Below, piece by piece: positions 4,521 through 16,336 of a DNA stretch of 22,236 nucleotides (its first letter is position 1; every line of letters begins with the position of its first letter). The notes under the pieces were generated by a model. The model was given only the letters and a program-made list of their open reading frames with translations. It was not told where the DNA came from and searched no databases. The DNA comes from a virus. A program made the translations under genes and the position numbers. The stretch spans positions 1 to 22,236 of the IMG/VR virus record IMGVR_UViG_3300029915_000153, one strand, 5' to 3'.

Positions 4521-6538
4521 AGCGGACCTACCTTTGTGTTCTTTAGAAGATCAGCCAAAGAAGCTTTCTTCCACTTGGCTGTATTGCGCACGATAAAGAA
4601 GCGGCTTTGCGAGCCGTCATCTAAACGTATGGGGTTTCCCTTATGGGCTTGAGCAAACCCAGCGGCGGCCAAAGCACGGGACATGCCGTTGATGGTGACC
4701 TTACCAGATGGGTCGTGATTCTGCTGGTACATGGCTAGAATATCTTTGGCAGTGAAAAGGTCACGCCTATGCCGCATCTTACCAAGCATAAGATAAGCGT
4801 CGGGGTTTTCGCGCAGGTCTGCGCACCACGCCCCTAGGTCGCTGCGCCCGTGAACAACCATTCTAGCCTTAGCAGCGGTCTTGAAGGCGGGCGCATGTGG
4901 GTTGAAGTTAGACGTGTCCCTGTGTAGCAAGTAATAGAACAGATGGCTCGGGCCGCCGTTGGTCCGCCACTCGTGATACTTGCGGTAGAACTCGTCAGGC
5001 AGCGGCTCATCTTGGGTCACTTCATGAATAGCATACCGGCGGTCCTTGTCTTCGATATAGAACGCATCGGCATGGTTGCTCGTGAAATAGTAATTGATCA
5101 CGTCCGGTATTGTGTACTCCGGCACGTTCTTCGTGTTTATGGAAATTTCTTCTTGAGTGATCACAGCTTTGAGTTCGTCGGACTCTGCTCGTTTGTCTGT
5201 ACCGGATATCTCATCGCCAAGTATGAACTGTTTGTTTGCCGCCCATGTGTTGAAGCTTGACTTGAGCTGGCGGTTTGTCACCTTGGTGAAGTTATAGCCA
5301 TACAAAGAGCCTAGCGTGTATCCCACCAAGCTTTTGCCCGTACCTGTGGCGCGCCCATGCACAATGACAGCGCTGAACAGCTTCGTGCCGGGGTACTGTA
5401 TCGGGTAGGCGCACCAATCCAGGAACCAATCTAGGAACTCGGCCTCGGCATCTTCGAATAGGAATTTTGTAAGATCAGTCCACGGCTTGATGTCGCCTTT
5501 TTTGGGTTCGCACCCCCAGCCGTTCCACTCGTTGAACAGACCATCGTCGGTGAACTTGGGCGCGCCCGGCGCATAGGTGATCTTTGCAACAGACTTACGC
5601 AGTGGCCACTTTATCCAGGCGGCGGCGGCGCTAACCTTGTCATAGCTAAGGGAGCCGCCCGGCTTTACCACGCGCTCGGGCGTGCTTTGGGTTGCCCAGT
5701 CGCTATGACCGGTAAACCCAGCGGGCGACATCTTGATATTGTACGACTCACCGTCTGATGAGGCTATGATAATGCCGGGGTCACGCACATACGTTAGTTC
5801 GTCGTTCATCTCCCATAGCTTGGTTGATATAACAAGTGGTTCGGCTTCGGCCATAAGGGCCACGAGTTTCTCTTCGCCGCGCTCTATCAGAAAGTCATCA
5901 AGCCCAGTCTTCTTATCGGCGTACACATCGGGTAGCGATATGAGCCGGGGCTTGGCGCCGCGCTCTTGGAGTTCTTCACACAGAAGGTTAATGGCGTGGC
6001 AGACCATGGGGTTGTCCACATAGTCTGAATCATACGCCACGTAGACAGCCCGGCGCGCCCACTTGATTGTCTCAAGTTCGGGGAGCCAGAAGATACCGTC
6101 TTTGGCTGCGCGGAAGTTATGCACGCCGCCCAGCCCGATGGCGCTGAAGTTATGCGCTGCGGCCTTGGCGGCTTTGAGCTCGCCCTCGGTTATGATTATG
6201 GGCTCGTCCGTGTTCTCCGCGATTGTGGACCACGGTAGGCTCTTAGGGAAGTAGGCGTGCGCGCTGGTAAAGGCGGGCTGGCTGTAGCGCTGCGCCTTGC
6301 TGGCGTTGAACCCTTTGACGGAAGGGTTGGCGTCTAGGTACCTGACGCGGAAGAACGGGACCGTCGCATCGCGCAACGGTTTACCGGCGATATCGTAATA
6401 CGGGATGACAAGGGAGGGCGTCGCCTTGAAGTTGGACCCTAGAACTAGCGCGCTCTCGATGCTGTACATACCAAGATCGGCAGCTTCCTTTGGCGTCAGC
6501 CCGCTGCTCTTAACCTTTACCGCCGCAATGTCTAACAA
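4517..6538 (-). CDS. Toprim (DUF3854-like) and SF3 helicase fusion, phage primase-helicase type
   Basis: This is the likely replication protein. Numbering is from TTG 6538 (673 aa). A Toprim-like domain has IIITEGE at about 114-120 and YDSD at 169-172, the acidic metal-binding pairs of DUF3854. A superfamily 3 helicase follows, with Walker A GRATGTGKS (395-403), Walker B FILGDE (438-443), sensor-1 region FTSNHAD (485-491) and Arg-Arg (500-501) as candidate arginine fingers. This arrangement resembles D5/DUF5906 helicases of phages and plasmids. The TTG was chosen because GGGAGG lies 6 bases before it. The frame stays open to a TTG at 6652 that has no ribosome site. I see no archaeo-eukaryotic-type primase domain, so priming may need a host or separate enzyme. 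Confidence 0.9.
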   Translation of the reverse strand: MLDIAAVKVKSSGLTPKEAADLGMYSIESALVLGSNFKATPSLVIPYYDIAGKPLRDATVPFFRVRYLDANPSVKGFNASKAQRYSQPAFTSAHAYFPKSLPWSTIAENTDEPIIITEGELKAAKAAAHNFSAIGLGGVHNFRAAKDGIFWLPELETIKWARRAVYVAYDSDYVDNPMVCHAINLLCEELQERGAKPRLISLPDVYADKKTGLDDFLIERGEEKLVALMAEAEPLVISTKLWEMNDELTYVRDPGIIIASSDGESYNIKMSPAGFTGHSDWATQSTPERVVKPGGSLSYDKVSAAAAWIKWPLRKSVAKITYAPGAPKFTDDGLFNEWNGWGCEPKKGDIKPWTDLTKFLFEDAEAEFLDWFLDWCAYPIQYPGTKLFSAVIVHGRATGTGKSLVGYTLGSLYGYNFTKVTNRQLKSSFNTWAANKQFILGDEISGTDKRAESDELKAVITQEEISINTKNVPEYTIPDVINYYFTSNHADAFYIEDKDRRYAIHEVTQDEPLPDEFYRKYHEWRTNGGPSHLFYYLLHRDTSNFNPHAPAFKTAAKARMVVHGRSDLGAWCADLRENPDAYLMLGKMRHRRDLFTAKDILAMYQQNHDPSGKVTINGMSRALAAAGFAQAHKGNPIRLDDGSQSRFFIVRNTAKWKKASLADLLKNTKVGPL

Positions 6539-8577: not shown

Positions 8578-8753
8578 TTGCTTCTCCTTTCCGCACTAAG
8601 CCAGATCGCGGCGCAGAACGCCGTGGACGCCATATCACAGCGGTCGCCCATGGCGGCTAACGCCCAGCCCGCGTTCCAGACTGGAACGTGGAGCCCTGCA
8701 CCGACGAACCACGCCAGCATGGCGCACGCCAGACAGCCGAGAAAGCGGGTCAC
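8574..8753 (-). CDS. Small membrane protein, 59 aa
   Basis: A GTG at 8753 overlaps the upstream TGA (GTGA), and its TGA stop overlaps the next ATG (ATGA). It exactly fills the space between two genes: 60 codons including stop. The translation has a membrane-type first half (LGCLACAMLAWFVGAGLHV) and a second hydrophobic stretch (MASTAFCAAIWLSA) before a basic tail, ERRSK. Four Cys are present. The exact overlaps at both ends are strong evidence that it is a gene. Two short helices could suit a holin- or spanin-like accessory, but this is unproven. Confidence 0.75.
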   Translation of the reverse strand: MTRFLGCLACAMLAWFVGAGLHVPVWNAGWALAAMGDRCDMASTAFCAAIWLSAERRSK

Positions 8754-8959
8754 GACTTCACCCAGTAGGCTGGGAACATGGGGATGGCGAAGTTAGTCTC
8801 GCCGCGCACGGGCTCGCCGGTCATGTCGATGCGCCGCACCGTGACAATGGCGGGCGTTTTCTTTGCGGCCGGAATATCACGCTCGTACTGCCACGACCGG
8901 CCAAGCTGATCGATGACTCGTTCACCGGACTTCACCGGCTTGTTTCCTTGCATAAGCAT
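8750..8959 (-). CDS. Unknown small protein, 69 aa
   Basis: ATG at 8959 follows a perfect AAGGAGG at 5-base spacing, the strongest ribosome site in the region. A second ATG at 8953 is possible. The sequence is beta-rich and basic (GERVIDQLGRSWQYERDI, then AIVTVRRIDMTGEPVRGE), ending in an aromatic segment. It is the first gene after the structured leader at 8960-9166. Function unknown. Confidence 0.83.
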   Translation of the reverse strand: MLMQGNKPVKSGERVIDQLGRSWQYERDIPAAKKTPAIVTVRRIDMTGEPVRGETNFAIPMFPAYWVKS

Positions 8960-8994
8960 TAGGACCTCCTTGGGGTTTCGCGCTTAGTTGCGCA

Positions 8995-9020
8995 CATCGG
9001 CACGACAGATAGCCGTGGAC
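8995..9020 (-). other. Conserved covarying hairpin element, copy A
   Basis: On the + strand it reads CATCGG, CACGAC, agata, GCCGTG, GAC. In the leftward transcript the 6-bp stem includes one G-U pair. Flanks and layout are the same as in copies at 11892-11919 and 13007-13034. It lies 36 bases before the start at 8959 and 2 bases after a second hairpin. Confidence 0.75.
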
Positions 9021-9022
9021 CC

Positions 9023-9053
9023 GGCCGACTCCGCGGGTCAGGAAGAGTCGGCC
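9023..9053. other. 9-bp perfect hairpin upstream of element A
   Basis: ggccgactc (9023-9031) and gagtcggcc (9045-9053) are perfect inverted repeats around a 13-base loop. No U-run follows on the - strand. The stem resembles the hairpin at 11926-11949 (ggccgaccc/gggtcggcc), so the two leaders share both structures. Confidence 0.8.
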
Positions 9054-9067
9054 TTGGCTTGAAGGGT

Positions 9068-9085
9068 TTAACCTCCGGGATTCAT
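9068..9085 (-). CDS. Possible 5-residue leader peptide MNPGG
   Basis: ATG at 9085 has a good ribosome site (AGAGGAGA, about 8 bases) and the frame stops after MNPGG. It sits in the 207-base leader upstream of two hairpins and the gene at 8959. A leader peptide controlling the downstream structures is possible. It could instead be a degraded gene start, since the frame after the stop ends in KADSS, like the KADP end of the protein at 11937-12512. Confidence 0.35.
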   Translation of the reverse strand: MNPGG

Positions 9086-9156
9086 GATGGTCTCTCCTCT
9101 GTACTTGTGAACTACCCGCGCGGCCGGAGCCGTGCTCGCGGGTTAGCCAACGAAGC

Positions 9157-9168
9157 AAGTATAAGCCT
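9157..9168 (-). promoter_or_regulatory. Candidate promoter -10 region, AGGCTTATACTT copy 2
   Basis: Same 12-mer as at 2366-2377, overlapping the TAG stop of the gene at 9167-9343 and preceding the 8960-9166 leader. TATACT fits a -10 box. No good -35 hexamer is visible, so an activator or a phage-specific factor would be needed if it is a promoter. Confidence 0.4.
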
Positions 9169-9343
9169 AAACTAACAGGCGAACTAGCAGGGCGGGCGCC
9201 AGCACATAAAACGCCCCTAGCAGGCTCAGGGACGCTGCTACGCGCCACCATTGGCGCTTGCGGGCGCAATGGTAGGCGTAAAACAAAAGCGGCCCTGATA
9301 CGGGTCCTATGGCAAGGATTGCCATGAGCTTAGTGGTGGACAT
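9167..9343 (-). CDS. Small two-helix membrane protein, 58 aa
   Basis: The start is MSTTKLMAILAIG at 9343, overlapping the end of the DUF6011-type gene by 14 bases. The frame is open to 9427 inside that gene. Two membrane segments, about residues 5-23 (KLMAILAIGPVSGPLLFYA) and 37-56 (AASLSLLGAFYVLAPALLVR), flank a basic loop, CARKRQWWR. This hairpin topology is seen in holins and other small phage membrane proteins. No lysis enzyme is nearby, so the role is open. Confidence 0.78.
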   Translation of the reverse strand: MSTTKLMAILAIGPVSGPLLFYAYHCARKRQWWRVAASLSLLGAFYVLAPALLVRLLV

Positions 9344-9743
9344 GGAGCACACATTCTGGGCCGAACCCGCTTGCGAGGGAACTCGGCACTGTGAGTGCTC
9401 TGCCACAACGCCCGCAGTGACCATCATGCCATATCTCCAGCATGGGATGGAGCTCGCCCTTGTTCAAGCGCCGCAGTAACCAAGCGAACGCCTCCACTGG
9501 CAGAGATCCAGTGGTCATCTTGGACTTCGAGCTAAGGCGGAGCTCTCCGTTCTTGATGAAGCCGAGATAGGTGTAGTGTCCCGGCTCGGTCAGCAGGCGC
9601 ACGAATGAGATTCGCTTGTCCTTACTGGCTCTCACGCGATAGGTGTACCGATACTTGGTCACCTTTGATACTATGGTGAACCGCGCGTTGCCACCGAGCA
9701 CGAAGGCGCGTGCTTCGGTGGCGCTGGTGAAGGGGGCGGTCAT
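9330..9743 (-). CDS. Phage protein with DUF6011-type C-terminal zinc motif
   Basis: The protein has 137 residues. ATG at 9743 overlaps the upstream stop (ATGA). The N-terminal part (ARFTIVSKVTKYRYTYRVR and HYTYLGFI) is beta-rich, with a basic patch. The C-terminus carries HCGRCGRALTVPSSLASGFGPEC, whose CxxC...L...S...GxGPxC pattern matches the DUF6011 zinc-binding family common in phages and plasmids. That family has no established reaction, and a nucleic-acid-binding role is an inference. The longer frame to 9866 lies within the neighbouring gene. Confidence 0.88.
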   Translation of the reverse strand: MTAPFTSATEARAFVLGGNARFTIVSKVTKYRYTYRVRASKDKRISFVRLLTEPGHYTYLGFIKNGELRLSSKSKMTTGSLPVEAFAWLLRRLNKGELHPMLEIWHDGHCGRCGRALTVPSSLASGFGPECVLHVHH

Positions 9744-9913
9744 CTGTACCACACGAGGTCCGGGATCGGGGCGCCGAACTCGTCGGTCACCCTGATCGGT
9801 GGCGGCAGGCTGTTCAGAGTCCGCCGCTCCATGTCGAGCGACATGGGCTTTAGAATATACGACCATTGGTCGCCCCGCTTGACTTGGATGCGGTACAGTG
9901 GTTCTTCAGTCAT
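9740..9913 (-). CDS. Unknown small protein, 57 aa
   Basis: ATG at 9913 has GGAGG 6 bases before and overlaps the previous gene's stop region by 8 bases. The sequence MTEEPLYRIQVKRGDQWSYI is beta-strand-like, followed by Pro-rich VTDEFGAPIPDLVWYR. It lies between the AAA/DUF7192-type pair and the DUF6011-type gene. No family recognised. Confidence 0.75.
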   Translation of the reverse strand: MTEEPLYRIQVKRGDQWSYILKPMSLDMERRTLNSLPPPIRVTDEFGAPIPDLVWYR

Positions 9914-10745
9914 AGTCTGCCTCCACAATGGTCTCGCCCGCCGCGTTGTTGATTATGTTGACCAACGAGCGCACGGCGCCGCGCGTGGTCTTACAGTCGG
10001 AGTACGCTATGTTGATACACAAGGCGCGCTCAGCGTCGATGAGCGGCAGGATTTCAGCCGTGATGGGTATGGAGTGTCCGTAGTCATCGTCCTGCATACT
10101 GTACCGCGTGCGCTCCCGCAAAGCGAACCCGAGGCGCCGCACAGAGGCCGGATGCGCAATGCTAAAGGCAAGCGCCCCGAAGTCCAAGTGTTCGTCAGCG
10201 CGCTTTATCTTCCAGCCCTCTAGCGATTTGCCGTTGGGGAGCCGCCGGTAGAACGCAACGTCCAGCTCCACGCGGCGTCCCGAGGCCTCCAACTGGTCGA
10301 TGACCAATGCCATAGCAGTCCCCATGGTGAGGAACTCATAGGCGGTGACCTCGCTGTGAGTCATGGGCGCGATTACCAAGTGGATCACCGGCTTTATGCC
10401 GGACTGGCGCCCGCGCCGGACCATGCAGTCAGGCTGACCACTCACGAAGCGGCCGACATCGGGGAAGTCACCCCCGACATCGAACTGGCGCTTATGGTGG
10501 ACCGCTTGTGGCGCGGGCATAGCCTTGACGCCCTTGGCAAGGCGGTCCGTGCCGTCGGGCCATCCTTTGAGGGCGAGCTCCAGCGCACCCTCGTAGTCAA
10601 GGCCAAAAGTCCAGCGGTGACCGTAGTCATTAGTCTTGGAGTTGTTGTAGGTCCAGACACGCGGCGTCGTGCGCAAGTAACGCACAACGTCGTCTAACGA
10701 GTCACCAAACTGAACGACTATGTTACCGGACTGTGACAGGCGCAT
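9906..10745 (-). CDS. DUF7192-like partner of the CobS-type ATPase
   Basis: The protein has 279 residues. ATG at 10745 overlaps the ATPase stop (TGATG). The N-terminal region (GDSLDDVVRYLRT, then FGLDYEGALELALKGWPDGTDRL) matches my recollection of DUF7192-type phage proteins, which often lie beside CobS-like ATPases. The central part is alpha/beta (KPVIHLVIAPMTHSEVTAYEFLTMGTAMALVIDQLEASGRRVELDVAF) and reads like the core of a Rossmann or VWA-type fold. A MIDAS DxSxS motif is not evident. I infer that it is the substrate or adaptor partner of the upstream MoxR/CobS ATPase. The DUF assignment is from memory of the pattern. Confidence 0.75.
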   Translation of the reverse strand: MRLSQSGNIVVQFGDSLDDVVRYLRTTPRVWTYNNSKTNDYGHRWTFGLDYEGALELALKGWPDGTDRLAKGVKAMPAPQAVHHKRQFDVGGDFPDVGRFVSGQPDCMVRRGRQSGIKPVIHLVIAPMTHSEVTAYEFLTMGTAMALVIDQLEASGRRVELDVAFYRRLPNGKSLEGWKIKRADEHLDFGALAFSIAHPASVRRLGFALRERTRYSMQDDDYGHSIPITAEILPLIDAERALCINIAYSDCKTTRGAVRSLVNIINNAAGETIVEADYD

Positions 10746-11848
10746 CAGAGCACCCCGTTCTCTATGCGGCGCCGTACGTCAGCCGCCAGACCTTTCCAGA
10801 TCGTGGCGTCCGCGACGACTCCGCGGTCCATACCGGCGGCGAGCATGCGCGCGCCCCGTATAGAGGCACGCGGGCTGACAATGTGCCGGACTTGTTGCGC
10901 CATCACTTGCGCGCGGATCTTCTGGACATAGGTGGTCCATTCCGTGTCCCCAGCGATTTCGTGCTCCAGCGCTTCATCATAGTCGACTTCGAAGAAGTCG
11001 AACCGGTCGATAGTGGCCGCGTCCAGTTGATTGCGGCCGACATACTGGCGGTCTGCGCCGCGCCCAAAGGTATTGCCCGCCGCAATGGCGTGGAAGTCCT
11101 TGTGGACTTGCACAAGACCGTTCGGGAAGTCACACATGCCGTTGTCCAGCGCGGCATTAAAGCTTGTCATGGCGTCCGCGTCGCTGGCGTCCACCTCATC
11201 GAAGAGAAAGACTCCACCGTATTCGTACGCTTCGCGGAAGCTTGTGCGAACCGTGGCGCCATGGGCGTCCACGAAGCCGATAAGCTTGAACTCGCTGGTG
11301 ACTCGCGCCGCCATGTAGAACTTCAGCCCCATGACCTTGGCGATTTGCTTCGCCAGTGTGGTCTTGCCGGAACCGGCTGGGCCGACCAAGAATGGGTTGG
11401 ACCCCGCCACCATGGCCTGAAGTATCGTCGGGAGCATGGCGTGGCTCTTGTCCAGCTTTACACTGGGCGCCTTACCAATCTTGATCTCCGCGACCTTGGT
11501 GACCTTGAGAAGCTCGGACCGCACAAGCGCTGGGAGCATCCTCTCGACGCCGGGGCCGACCGTGGCCACGAAATGCTCGGCCACCTTTTCGAAGGTGAGG
11601 TCAGCAGTCTTGCGCGCAAGGTCGTCGACGTCGACGCCCTCTACGTTGACCGCTGACGTTGCCGCGTTCTTGGCAAACGCGGGCTCAGGGGCCGGTTCGC
11701 CGCTTACGTCGAACTCGTACCTGTGTGTCGCGCAGTAGAATTTGCGCCCCATTACTGAGTCAACGCGGTAGCACCCCTCGTTTGGAGGGAGCTCCATTCC
11801 GCATACACTGCATTTCGCAGCGTATATGTTTGCTCTCCAGATTGTCAT
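10745..11848 (-). CDS. CobS/MoxR-type AAA+ ATPase with N-terminal zinc motif
   Basis: The protein has 367 residues. ATG at 11848 follows AGGAGA. The N-terminus has a probable zinc site (C13, C16, C26, C39, H42). The AAA+ core has Walker A GPAGSGKT (156-163), Walker B VFLFDEVD (213-220), sensor-1 Asn in AIAAGNTFG (about 259) and an arginine finger in AATIDRFDFF (R282). The layout matches CobS, the ATPase of cobaltochelatase, and MoxR proteins, which remodel partner complexes. Phage copies are not expected to make cobalamin and more likely act as protein-remodelling machines with the DUF7192-like neighbour. Its leader carries the conserved hairpin (copy C). Confidence 0.92.
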   Translation of the reverse strand: MTIWRANIYAAKCSVCGMELPPNEGCYRVDSVMGRKFYCATHRYEFDVSGEPAPEPAFAKNAATSAVNVEGVDVDDLARKTADLTFEKVAEHFVATVGPGVERMLPALVRSELLKVTKVAEIKIGKAPSVKLDKSHAMLPTILQAMVAGSNPFLVGPAGSGKTTLAKQIAKVMGLKFYMAARVTSEFKLIGFVDAHGATVRTSFREAYEYGGVFLFDEVDASDADAMTSFNAALDNGMCDFPNGLVQVHKDFHAIAAGNTFGRGADRQYVGRNQLDAATIDRFDFFEVDYDEALEHEIAGDTEWTTYVQKIRAQVMAQQVRHIVSPRASIRGARMLAAGMDRGVVADATIWKGLAADVRRRIENGVL

Positions 11849-11891
11849 CTAGATCTCCTGTTCATGTTTCGACCCTTATGCCTTGGGTCAT

Positions 11892-11919
11892 CATCGGCAA
11901 GGCGGCATTAGCCTTGGAC
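11892..11919 (-). other. Conserved covarying hairpin element, copy C
   Basis: The + strand reads CATCGG, CAAGGC, ggcatta, GCCTTG, GAC: a perfect 6-bp stem with a 7-base loop. The stem sequence differs from copies A and B, yet pairing is kept. It lies in the leader of the AAA+ ATPase gene, 44 bases before the start at 11848. Confidence 0.75.
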
Positions 11920-11925
11920 ATGAAC

Positions 11926-11949
11926 GGCCGACCCGGTTAGGGGTCGGCC
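11926..11949. other. 9-bp hairpin spanning a stop codon
   Basis: ggccgaccc (11926-11934) and gggtcggcc (11941-11949) pair around a 6-base loop that includes the stop (TAA on the - strand, 11939-11937) of the gene at 11937-12512. There is no U-tract, so it is probably a stability or coupling element, not a classic terminator. Similar in sequence to the hairpin at 9023-9053. Confidence 0.8.
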
Positions 11950-12512
11950 TTGGTAATGTACTGATTTTTGAACATCCAGTTGAAGTCCAGCTTCTTCTCT
12001 TGATACGCGCCGGACTCTCTGTGAGCCGCGACCGCGTCCCGCGTGTTACCATGGGCGAGGATGGTCCGGACCATGTAGTTCGTCCAGTTCATCACGTTGC
12101 GACCACGTCGGTGCTGAGCCGGTCCCGCTGTATAGTAGATCGTCGCGCCTTGGCGGACGCGAGTCTGGCGGGTCGTCACTACCCTCTTAGTCGCCACACG
12201 CGGCTCAGGCTCTTGGGCGGTCGTCTGGCGCCTTGGCAGGACTTTTAGGAAGGCGTCGGTAAAGATCGCCTTCCCTGTCCACATTGCGGCGAGATCTCTC
12301 ATAGTCGGTTCCTTCTCATGAGGGAGTTTTTCGTTGTACATGAACTGACGCGCCATGGCCATCTGCTGATCGGGCTTTGCCTTGGCAAAGCGCTTCTCAG
12401 CCTTGGCTAGCGTCGCCGCGTCCACGTTTTGCACGGCGCGCGCAAAGCCCTCGACCGTACAGTGTACGGCCGAGATGCTCTGGCATGCCGCGAAGATGGT
12501 CGGGGCGATCAT
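11937..12512 (-). CDS. Mosaic protein: ACQ/CT N-domain plus WT-YMV/DF-WM C-module
   Basis: The protein has 191 residues. ATG at 12512 overlaps the upstream stop (ATGA). Residues 1-60 (APTIFAACQ, then CTVEGFARAV, then DAATLAKAEKRFA) are paralogous to the gene just upstream (12509-12751). Residues 121-188 (GATIYYTAGPAQ, WTNYMVRTILAH, KLDFNWM, YIT) match the C-terminal part of the protein at 13087-13686. A basic Gln/Arg/Thr-rich linker joins them. This looks like a duplication and module fusion within one operon. No family recognised. The basic linker would suit DNA binding (inference). Confidence 0.85.
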   Translation of the reverse strand: MIAPTIFAACQSISAVHCTVEGFARAVQNVDAATLAKAEKRFAKAKPDQQMAMARQFMYNEKLPHEKEPTMRDLAAMWTGKAIFTDAFLKVLPRRQTTAQEPEPRVATKRVVTTRQTRVRQGATIYYTAGPAQHRRGRNVMNWTNYMVRTILAHGNTRDAVAAHRESGAYQEKKLDFNWMFKNQYITKADP

Positions 12513-12751
12513 AGGCGCGCCATGAGCGCGGATATGATCGCCGCGCGCTCTCCAGCGGACAACGCGGCAAAGCGATTTTCCAAGCGCTTCACCGTGTCCG
12601 CGTCATAGCGGCGCAGCGCTTTGGCGAAGTCTTCGCTAGTGCAACGCTCCCGCCCATGGGCGGCGACGCGCTGGCAAGCTTTGAACATGGTTGGCGCGCG
12701 GTTCACCGCTATCGCGATGTCCGCAGCGCTCAGCTTTGGGTCAGAGCGCAC
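12509..12751 (-). CDS. Small protein paralogous to the N-domain of its downstream neighbour, 80 aa
   Basis: GTG at 12751 has GGAG 9 bases before and overlaps the upstream gene by 11 bases. ATG at 12778 (89 aa) is the alternative. Its core, APTMFKACQ, CTSEDFAKAL and DADTVKRLENRFA, aligns closely with residues 3-44 of the next protein. It is helical and charged, with two Cys. The adjacent paralogue suggests a tandem duplication. Function unknown. Confidence 0.8.
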   Translation of the reverse strand: MRSDPKLSAADIAIAVNRAPTMFKACQRVAAHGRERCTSEDFAKALRRYDADTVKRLENRFAALSAGERAAIISALMARL

Positions 12752-12974
12752 GCCGGTCCACTCCGTCCCAGTGACCATGCCAGTCGCGGGTGAACGTGAA
12801 CACGTTTTTCCCCTCGGCGAGCAACGCGGCGCGGCGCTTGCCATAGGCGCGCTGGCATTCGGAGCGCTTAACAAAGCGCCCGATCTCCGTGCCGTTCTCT
12901 TCCAGAACGTGGCGTACATAGGTCCCGCCTCTGGGACCGCGCTCTATAACCCGAGCGCAAGTTAGCTTTGCCAT
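12741..12974 (-). CDS. Unknown basic protein, 77 aa
   Basis: ATG at 12974 has AGGAGA upstream. The frame is open to 13172, but the extension crosses two hairpins and is Arg/Pro-rich noise. The sequence is MAKLTCARVIERGPRGGTYV, with a basic middle (RSECQRAYGKRRAALLAEGK) and an aromatic end (FTFTRDWHGHWDG). The GPRGG-YVRHV pattern suggests a small beta domain. It is the first gene after the conserved hairpin element B. Not recognised. Confidence 0.8.
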   Translation of the reverse strand: MAKLTCARVIERGPRGGTYVRHVLEENGTEIGRFVKRSECQRAYGKRRAALLAEGKNVFTFTRDWHGHWDGVDRRAL

Positions 12975-13006
12975 CTTGGTCTCCTGTTTCGGCCATGCTT
13001 GGCCAT

Positions 13007-13034
13007 CATCGGCACGCCAGCGATAGGCGTGGAC
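13007..13034 (-). other. Conserved covarying hairpin element, copy B
   Basis: The + strand reads CATCGG, CACGCC, agcgata, GGCGTG, GAC: a perfect 6-bp stem with a 7-base loop. The flanks are identical to those of copies A and C. It ends 33 bases before the start at 12974. Confidence 0.75.
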
Positions 13035-13043
13035 AGGCGCTCG

Positions 13044-13072
13044 GACCCCACGCCATTTTCGGGCGTGGGGTC
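13044..13072. other. 11-bp strong hairpin (terminator-like) between genes
   Basis: gaccccacgcc (13044-13054) pairs with ggcgtggggtc (13062-13072) around a 7-base loop. It lies 14 bases after the stop at 13087 of the leftward gene. No U-tract follows leftward, and only a short TTT rightward. Its ccccacgc/gcgtgggg core is the same as in the terminator at 16263-16287, which hints at a common origin. Confidence 0.75.
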
Positions 13073-13086
13073 TTTGCGGGCGGACA

Positions 13087-13686
13087 CTAGCCGAGCTTGA
13101 TGTACCCCTTGGCGTCCATCCACTTGAAGTCCAGCGGCTTGGTCGCGGGGTAACCCGCTTTCGCGGCGCCATCCTTGTGCGCGGCGGTCGCGCTGTCCGT
13201 GTCCTTGTGCTTCAGGGTCAGCGTGACCATGTACAAGGTCCAGCCGCCCTTGGCGTTGGCGTACACGACCGACCCCTTGGAGATCGTCCGGTTCACCGCG
13301 ACGCGGGGCGTCTTGGTCGCCGCCTTGGCGGGCTTGGCGGTTGCGGCGCGTTCTTCCGGGGTCATTGCCTCACGCTTTAGGGCGTTGACCGCCTTGTTTG
13401 CCGCGATGACAGCCAGTTCGGCCGCCGCCTTGGCGGTAAACGCGTCCTTGCGGGCGGCGCCCTTAGCCTTAGTGGCGGTTGCGGTTGCAACGGTCACCGC
13501 CGCCTTGGCGTCGGCCAAGGTTTTCTCGGCCTTGGCAAGCTTGGTCGCGGCCGCGTTTTCAGCAACGGCGCGCTTAGTATGCGGCGCTTTGTCCGTTGCG
13601 CCGTGCGCGGGCGCCGTAGCCACTTTGGTCACGGTCGGTTCGCCGCCCTTGGAGGGGCGAGTGTCTTTAGTAACGGTCTTGGTCAT
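13087..13686 (-). CDS. Lys/Ala-rich histone-like protein with WT-YMV/DF-WM C-module
   Basis: The protein has 199 residues. ATG at 13686 has AAGGA 8 bases before. Residues 1-135 are almost entirely Ala, Lys and Thr (for example LAKAEKTLADAKAAVTVATAT), a composition like histone-H1-type or coiled-coil nucleoid proteins. Residues 137-197 (GSVVYANAKGGWTLYMVTLTLKH, then PLDFKWMDAKGYIK) form a folded module shared with the protein at 11937-12512. I infer DNA binding by the basic tail. The strongly biased composition could also be a low-complexity linker. Confidence 0.85.
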   Translation of the reverse strand: MTKTVTKDTRPSKGGEPTVTKVATAPAHGATDKAPHTKRAVAENAAATKLAKAEKTLADAKAAVTVATATATKAKGAARKDAFTAKAAAELAVIAANKAVNALKREAMTPEERAATAKPAKAATKTPRVAVNRTISKGSVVYANAKGGWTLYMVTLTLKHKDTDSATAAHKDGAAKAGYPATKPLDFKWMDAKGYIKLG

Positions 13687-13719
13687 TGTTTTGGTCCTTC
13701 AGTGTTATCTGATCGGGCA

Positions 13720-13878
13720 TTAGGCCTCGTCAGCAAACGTATAACGTCTGGACGGCATAGCCGTTTCGGCCTTCAGTAAAACGTCACCGCCCCGCCATGC
13801 TTTGCAGCATAGCGGGGCGGGGTCGCTGTATTTGCGCCAACGGGCGCTCCCCAAATTCGGGTATGGGGCGTTTTTCAT
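13720..13878 (-). CDS. Possible small protein, 52 aa
   Basis: ATG at 13878 gives MKNAPYPNLGSARWRKYSDP, then a Cys-Cys pair and FADEA at the end. An upstream ATG at 13917 is in frame. Neither has a convincing ribosome site. Composition is protein-like, not the Arg/Pro/Ala-rich type of random frames here, and it sits 33 bases before the next gene, so it may be the first gene of the leftward block. Confidence 0.45.
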   Translation of the reverse strand: MKNAPYPNLGSARWRKYSDPAPLCCKAWRGGDVLLKAETAMPSRRYTFADEA

Positions 13879-15628: not shown

Positions 15629-16141
15629 ATGTGGACGGTCCTAGTCACCGTTGGCGCTACAGAATTCTTAGTGCGCGACCGCTTGGTCGCCCTAGGACTC
15701 CAAGTATTCTGCCCCTATACTGTGGAAAAGCAACGCGTCAAGGCCCCTACACGTGGGCGCACAGTGTTTAAGGCCGTAGACACAGAGATCCCACGGTGGC
15801 CACGATACTTGTTCTGTAGAACAGAAGACGATGCTGCACTGGCGCTAGTAAAAGCGACGCGCGACGTGAACTATCTCCTGAAAAGCGCCGAAGGCGAGCC
15901 CGCGTTGCTTCCCGACAACGTAATGGCAAAGATTATGGCGGGCTGCGATACTTCGGGCAAAGTATTATCGCGCGCACTGTTACATGATTTCTCAGCCGGT
16001 GATCTGCTGCGGTTTGTAGCCGGGTCCAGCTTTGCTAACCGTTCAGCTTTGGTAATCGGTATTGAACAGAACGGCGCAGTGCGCGTTATGGTAGACTCGC
16101 ACATTAAAGCGATTGTAGACTTTAAAGATCTAGCGGCATAG
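15629..16141 (+). CDS. NusG/RfaH-like transcription elongation factor
   Basis: The protein has 170 residues. The N-terminal NGN-type domain begins WTVLVTVGATEFLVRDRLVALGLQVFCPYTVEKQR, followed by IPRWPRYLFCRT, the W-x-V and P-RY-F signature of NusG paralogues. A C-terminal KOW-like segment (DFSAGDLLRFVAGSSFANRSALVIGIE) follows a linker. NusG proteins bind the RNA polymerase clamp and reduce pausing or block Rho termination. A phage copy would favour long phage transcripts (inference). It stands alone just before the packaging genes, with weak ribosome site AGGCGA and a following terminator region. Confidence 0.9.
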   Translation: MWTVLVTVGATEFLVRDRLVALGLQVFCPYTVEKQRVKAPTRGRTVFKAVDTEIPRWPRYLFCRTEDDAALALVKATRDVNYLLKSAEGEPALLPDNVMAKIMAGCDTSGKVLSRALLHDFSAGDLLRFVAGSSFANRSALVIGIEQNGAVRVMVDSHIKAIVDFKDLAA

Positions 16142-16336
16142 GCTGGATCTACTCCGTTAACTTGTTATCGCAGCGCCAACGGGCGCCGCAGCAAGCAACC
16201 GAGGGGCATTGGCGCGTGGCGCCATGCAGTGCCGCGCTATGGCTCAGGTCCAAGTCACAAAAAACCCCACGCACAAGGCGTGGGGTTCTGTAGTTCTAGG
16301 CTGGGTTAGCGGTTAAGCGCGGCGCGCCGTTGGTTA
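16142..16336. other. Intergenic stretch between convergent genes
   Basis: No gene was found. It contains GC-rich short inverted repeats (ggcgcgtggcgcc near 16210) and the intrinsic terminator at 16259-16287. It separates the rightward NusG-like gene from the leftward gene at 16337. Confidence 0.7.
16259..16287 (-). terminator. Rho-independent terminator, leftward
   Basis: On the - strand AACCCCACGC-cttgt-GCGTGGGGTT is followed by TTTT, giving a 10-bp stem and a six-U tract (the + strand A-run is 16259-16264). It lies 49 bases after the stop of the leftward gene at 16337. The other direction has only TTCTGT, so rightward activity would be weaker. Confidence 0.9.

Follow-up and report, generated by a model that had tools for sequence, protein, structure and literature searches.

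Probable type III hammerhead ribozymes with a variant core, set beside strong hairpins between genes of a tailed phage

The stretch of viral DNA analysed here, positions 1 to 22,236 of the IMG/VR record IMGVR_UViG_3300029915_000153 (22,236 nucleotides, hereafter the window), carries on its minus strand three related elements, copies A, B and C, which are probably self-cleaving ribozymes of the type III hammerhead class. Their core is a variant one, they would act in cis, and they lie between genes of a tailed phage, on its leftward transcript. Hammerheads are a known kind of element; here the core is unusual in all three copies, and a fourth copy, D, has probably decayed. The architecture, the kinship with hammerheads of other phages, the core changes, the covariation of kissing loops, the gene context and the neighbouring hairpins were all computed. 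A sequence-only reading had described three hairpins at these sites with the constant flanks CATCGG and GAC on the plus strand, and on re-check the coordinates, flanks and stems were as stated there. Read on the minus strand and extended on both sides, these hairpins turn out to be the stem I arm of a hammerhead. The piece first described thus comprised stem I, the GUC triplet and part of the catalytic core (CCGAUG), while stem II, the GAA and stem III had been missed; likewise, the count of three copies holds for A, B and C, while the weak and decayed fourth had been overlooked.

12983-13037, minus strand: copy A, candidate type III hammerhead in which position 4 is C and A9 is followed by an extra U (descriptor, model R1, kissing pair); predicted cut between 13032 and 13031, minus strand
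11860-11925, minus strand: copy B, candidate type III hammerhead in which position 4 is C and A9 is followed by an extra U (descriptor, model R1, kissing pair); predicted cut between 11917 and 11916, minus strand
8973-9022, minus strand: copy C, candidate hammerhead with C4, U replacing A9 and a short loop I (descriptor, model R1, partial HH9 match); predicted cut, if any, between 9018 and 9017, minus strand
about 13708-13755, minus strand: copy D, probable hammerhead relic (weak R1 match and sequence)

In copies A, B and C the minus-strand order is stem III-GUC^-stem I-CCGAUG(A)U-stem II-GAA-stem III, which makes a complete type III hammerhead: a three-way junction open at stem III, with loops closing stems I and II. 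All three have GUC as the NUH triplet with the U16.1-A15.1 pair, both of which the descriptor requires, and GAA at G12-A13-A14 between stems II and III. Copy D keeps a CUGACGA core, stem I and a short stem II, but stem III is lost, the GAA has become GAU, and the triplet with its pair is absent. The descriptor of the full architecture with a strict core gave 3 matches in the window and 0 in 60 dinucleotide shuffles, and a loose-core version gave 0 matches in 15 shuffles. By contrast, the flank-and-gap pattern CATCGG-gap-GAC alone is at chance level (3 found, 1.82 expected, at least 3 in 29 of 100 shuffles). Standard pairs fill 97.8% of the 45 pair cells of A, B and C, and in six pairs, two per stem, both partners have changed (shuffled mean 2.1). 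The covariation score of the three copies is 0.644, compared to a shuffled mean of 0.192 and at most 0.156 for slid versions. The earlier suggestion of a structured RNA with compensatory pairing is supported by these values, and it extends to stems II and III, stem I being only a third of the element.

Model R1 is a covariance model built from 26 canonical 7-nt-core hammerheads of other viral contigs (alignment A4, covariation 0.804 versus 0.175 when shuffled) and contains nothing from the window phage. When the whole window was searched with filters off, R1 found copy A with 44.4 bits (E 7.2e-10), copy B with 37.3 bits (E 5.5e-8) and copy C with 29.4 bits (E 6.8e-6). The first reading, which knew of no described element of this form, is corrected by this result. 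For copy D (13708-13752, minus strand) R1 gave 17.4 bits, with an E value of 0.01 in this unfiltered search and 0.041 in a larger one, and the next match in the window had 8.5 bits. R1 matched the same four places in a longer, 64,774-base record of this phage.

Many phage hammerheads escape the Rfam gathering scores. In seven contig loci with descriptor hammerheads (L222, L231, L246, L247, L269, L283 and L354), they report one of seven canonical and none of three C4 hammerheads, and the sole copy reported scores 48.7 bits (cut-off 48.5). Under-annotation of phage type III hammerheads is probable. Copy C gave a partial match to Hammerhead_HH9 of 20.6 bits, below the gathering score of 52; other sub-threshold Rfam matches were treated as chance.

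For comparison with canonical elements, a scan of the collection viral_contigs targeted hammerheads that have U4 and, in stem III, UGUC and ACA; it gave at least 120 loci. Dropping context duplicates and matches with fewer than 12 stem pairs left 120 distinct hammerheads in 93 loci. All context, hairpin, kissing-pair and cluster statistics below rest on this one scan and hold among the matches listed. The consensus core C3-U4-G5-A6-N7-G8-A9 is altered in the window: C stands at position 4, where U is nearly invariant, in A, B and C, an extra U lies between A9 and G10.1 in A and B, and in copy C a U has taken the place of the lost A9. An extra core nucleotide occurs in 29 of the 120 canonical phage hammerheads, and in 26 it is a U. 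A viroid hammerhead reportedly also has an extra core nucleotide, to judge by a reference title. Changes of A9 lead to a 10-100-fold inhibition, and C at position 4 is likewise cited as a variation (PMC4075628). A change from CUGA to CCGA has been described in a viroid-like RNA, and in peach latent mosaic viroid (PLMVd) the same change left self-cleavage unaffected (PMC9608096).

A 3-bp kissing pair between loop I and loop II is possible in A (GCU/AGC) and B (GCC/GGC), as a pairing potential only; copy C has no such pairing. Phage hammerheads whose stem I has 5-6 bp and whose loop I has 6-7 nt comprise 18 distinct cases, and in 12 of these loop II could pair with the final three bases of loop I, against a permutation mean of 3.66; the p value of 0.0002 is optimistic, since the test was designed after the loop list had been viewed. 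Copies A and B conform to this covariation, C does not. From the state of the core, the kissing pair, the GAA and stem III, copies A and B appear able to cut, while C appears weakened and D dead. Since C4 is documented as an active natural variant, we would assign A and B to the core-variant hammerheads and call C and D hammerhead-derived, a label that implies no activity. This graded series of two intact copies, one weakened and one decayed may illustrate how such arrays wear down.

A hairpin lies on the 5' side of each element, in accordance with the first reading, which had placed each of its three copies directly behind a second hairpin:

13044-13072, minus strand: 11-bp hairpin on the 5' side of copy A, separated from stem III by 6 nt
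11926-11949, minus strand: hairpin 5' of copy B, 9 bp, touching the full 8-bp stem III
9023-9053, minus strand: hairpin 5' of copy C, 10 bp with an 11-nt loop, touching stem III, found with a wider loop limit only
13787-13820, minus strand: strong hairpin about 30 nt upstream of relic D

This arrangement is not confined to the window. With hairpins defined by at least 6 bp and a loop of 3-8 nt, and the gap measured from the four innermost pairs of stem III, a hairpin ends no more than 10 nt upstream of stem III in 60 of 119 phage hammerheads, and in 55 of them the gap is 0-2 nt. A hairpin within 10 nt is found at 5.5% of 2380 random positions and on the downstream side of 7 of 116 hammerheads. 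After clustering at 70% similarity, the hairpin at 0-2 nt remains in 21 of 70 clusters compared to 16 of 564 positions shortly after stop codons, and the 8 nt following these 21 hairpins contain at most four T. Since the stem GTGTC...GACAC recurs in 7 of the 70 clusters (e.g. L235, L246, L250, L259 and L262), hairpin and ribozyme may travel as one unit. No description of a hairpin beside a hammerhead was found in titles and abstracts of the open-licence PMC literature on phage hammerheads, and short blastn queries for the hairpin-hammerhead unit in cultured phages found none.

In a two-sequence comparison, the genes directly upstream of B (11937-12512, minus strand) and A (13087-13686, minus strand) proved related at their C-terminal ends, with 34% over 86 positions and an E value of 1e-9. 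Because of this relationship, the gene end, the hairpin and the ribozyme may have been duplicated together. Just upstream of the copy C hairpin, a five-codon frame, MNPGG (9068-9085, minus strand), follows a Shine-Dalgarno-like GAGGAGA; it could be a leader peptide or chance.

Copies A, B and C are each followed by a gene with a Shine-Dalgarno (SD) sequence. The earlier placement in leaders of a leftward transcript close to start codons is upheld, at distances of about 32, 35 and 43 nt by our own count.

12981-12985, minus strand: SD sequence AGGAG of the gene downstream of copy A; it overlaps the 3' strand of stem III
12741-12974, minus strand: small gene after copy A, 77 aa, part of the open reading frame (ORF) 12741-13172; the start, ATG at 12974, is placed by the SD sequence
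11855-11859, minus strand: SD sequence AGGAG after copy B, adjoining stem III
10745-11848, minus strand: AAA ATPase gene after copy B, 367 aa (Pfam AAA_5, E 2.5e-12; PHROG 249)
8965-8970, minus strand: SD sequence AGGAGG after copy C
8750-8959, minus strand: small gene after copy C, 69 aa, an ORF with no Pfam or PHROG match
13087-13686, minus strand: gene between relic D and copy A, 199 aa, an ORF with no Pfam or PHROG match

The context of the window copies matches that of other phage hammerheads. Among the canonical ones, 32 of 120 have an SD sequence and a start codon within 80 nt downstream, a start being counted if its frame has about 40 codons or more; the same holds for 204 of 2400 random same-strand positions and for 9 of 120 antisense controls. 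A frame of at least 50 codons ends no more than 150 nt upstream in 92 of 117 cases, compared to 45% of 2400 control positions. Nine of the 120 lie wholly within an ORF of at least 100 codons on the same strand, and 14 within one on the opposite strand.

We infer that the region is transcribed as one RNA, that this RNA is cut and that the hairpins protect the resulting ends. Each element would fold into its three-way junction during transcription and cut the RNA after GUC. The upstream mRNA would then end in a 2',3'-cyclic phosphate with a strong hairpin a few nucleotides before it, and the downstream mRNA would carry a 5'-OH at its start, which is the stem I hairpin, and its SD sequence at or just past stem III. 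A hairpin near the 3' end should hinder 3' exonucleases. In this way a long transcript could be divided into units with structured ends, with no need for a protein or a local terminator. Cleavage is expected of A and B; C would be slow or dead, and D is taken as a relic. A NusG-like gene is present at 15629-16141 on the plus strand (Pfam NusG, E 8.5e-8; PHROG 6386, transcription antiterminator, E 1e-10), and read-through transcription would provide a task for such processing.

The hairpin lying 0-2 nt before so many phage ribozymes suggests a job for them, the making of clamped 3' ends. It is conceivable that the clamp hairpin is the functional half of a two-part device, which together with the hammerhead would create protected 3' ends of mRNAs within long phage transcripts, independently of termination, would be widespread in tailed phages and would have in the C4 core of the window phage a fixed, rate-tuned version. 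We regard this only as a tentative proposal, and our estimate for it is slightly lower because the strict hairpin rule does not find the hairpin at every window copy. The hairpin adjoining phage hammerheads is nevertheless the wider point worth following.

The rare core change is present in all three copies found in the window phage, and C4 is rare in the contigs scanned. A C4 pattern gave 13 loci in viral_contigs, of which three were real (the same phage, L222 and L231), and 50 loci in genome_contigs, of which one was real (L354). The descriptor matches in L370 and L381 lay away from the pattern match, with weak stems and other cores, and were not counted. The phage-like contigs L222, L231 and L354 resemble the window in their type III order and CCGAUGA core, and R1 scores their C4 copies at 57.4, 51.2 and 63.6 bits, respectively. 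When the upstream sequence was folded, a hairpin was found 0-1 nt upstream in L231 and both L354 copies, and 4 nt upstream in L222. Unlike copies A and B, they are without the extra U, and L354 also has a canonical U4 copy. Its two hammerheads (777-825 and 5380-5432, minus strand) are 4.6 kb apart and have a nearly identical stem I, one with U4 and one with C4, and would serve as a natural pair for gauging the effect of C4. Combining C4 with the extra U, a strict pattern gave 5 loci, of which only the same phage was real, and a looser one gave at least 119 loci with no hammerhead in the 118 scanned. A search for the core of copy C gave 9 loci, of which again only the same phage was real.

Single-protein searches of viral_contigs with the AAA ATPase and a DUF7192 protein returned only the same phage, whose second record (L022) is 100% identical in each of three proteins that were compared. 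Of the 267 relatives matched by a primase alignment, the best 80 were examined, L022 being one of them, which leaves 79. In four loci (L043, L045, L067 and L095) one weak descriptor match each, with a 3-bp stem III, was not counted. The best R1 score in four annotated phages and 23 of the 79 loci was 13 bits, and blastn of the region against the collection 'phages' gave no match; for MW202621 the portion covered was 10000-55719.

In stem order, GUC triplet, GAA and A15.1-U16.1 pair the window copies resemble the type III hammerheads of phages and prophages (Rfam RF00008, Hammerhead_3; PMC3088659), and they share with them the intergenic sites and the presence of several copies per phage. They differ by C4 in all three, by the extra U (A and B), by the missing A9 (C) and by scoring below the Rfam gathering score. 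The neighbouring 5' hairpin of the window copies goes unmentioned in the available part of PMC3088659, where 'hairpin' has two uses, for ribozyme loops and in a reference title. Natural core variants are known in phages from Bcep176 (A6C; PMC7151607) and from the halovirus HF1/HF2 hammerhead (PMC3088659), although other core positions are altered in those. The HF1/HF2 ribozyme lies 13 nt before a start codon, and an mRNA 5' end falls within 3 nt of its cut (PMC3088659). Processing of long phage transcripts by hammerheads has already been proposed (Perreault et al. 2011, PMC3088659); tandem phage arrays were cut in vitro and, in the case of A. tumefaciens, also in E. coli (PMC3088659). The role of hammerheads in phages and bacteria is still called open (PMC6155905, PMC7151607). 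The C4 core is shared with the PLMVd variant, which is reported to cleave, and with the viroid-like RNA CtaHVd-LR1 (PMC9608096), both with CCGA for CUGA. However, those are circular RNA replicons with single variants, whereas the window belongs to a DNA phage with C4 in all three copies found.

Several observations weigh against the assignment to self-cleaving ribozymes that act between genes. All three copies are off consensus at U4, and C at A9 too; neither the window nor the long record gives an Rfam match at gathering score. By the descriptor, the 79 primase-related loci (from the best 80 of 267) are without these elements, which for this reason look like a local acquisition, and the elements were found in no second lineage, the only other record being the same phage. 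Under the strict hairpin rule the gap is 4 for B and 7 for A, and C has no hairpin because of its 11-nt loop; about half of the phage hammerheads, and 70% of clusters, are without a hairpin within 2 nt, and 88 of 120 are without an SD sequence plus start within 80 nt. The predicted SD accessibility on cleavage changes from 0.38 to 0.58 for A and from 0.57 to 0.61 for C, and drops from 0.94 to 0.57 for B. Unmasking of the SD sequence by cleavage was therefore rejected, as accessibility clearly rises only for A.

The copies could instead be the remains of an acquired and now decaying array of hammerheads (C4, loss of A9 and of GAA), leaving at most a plain structured leader. The state of D, which is without GAA and stem III, and of C, without A9 and the kissing pair, would fit this, as would C4 in all three copies and the lack of a hammerhead in the 79 primase-related loci. 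However, A and B are otherwise intact in core, stems and kissing pair and show compensatory changes, and C4 has been reported as active elsewhere (PMC9608096), so that we consider decay of the whole array unlikely.

It is still less probable that pairs of ribozymes free the intervening RNA for ligation into a circle, as in retrozymes and viroid-like RNAs. The same-strand hammerheads are indeed spaced about 1.1 and 2.9 kb apart, and two or three copies are present in 23 of the 93 viral loci (one in 70, two in 19 and three in 4). But ordinary genes lie between the copies, the 64.8-kb phage record, which is possibly incomplete, has no match to the RtcB or RNA_ligase families, and such arrays were found to give no circular or spliced products (PMC3088659). 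Least of all do we expect an ordinary terminator, attenuator or protein-binding dyad with a chance likeness to a hammerhead: strong hairpins do lie directly upstream and the flank pattern by itself is at chance level, but no shuffle gave a match, E values reach 7.2e-10 with an independent model, none of the hairpins at 13044-13072, 11926-11949 and 9023-9053 is among the minus-strand terminator-like sites, and neither promoter-like nor terminator-like sites in the window are in excess over shuffles.

Apart from the hammerheads, a hairpin CCCCACGC...GCGTGGGG at 16259-16291 has a minus-strand U-run and a weak Leu_leader match on both strands, and looks like a terminator between opposed gene blocks.

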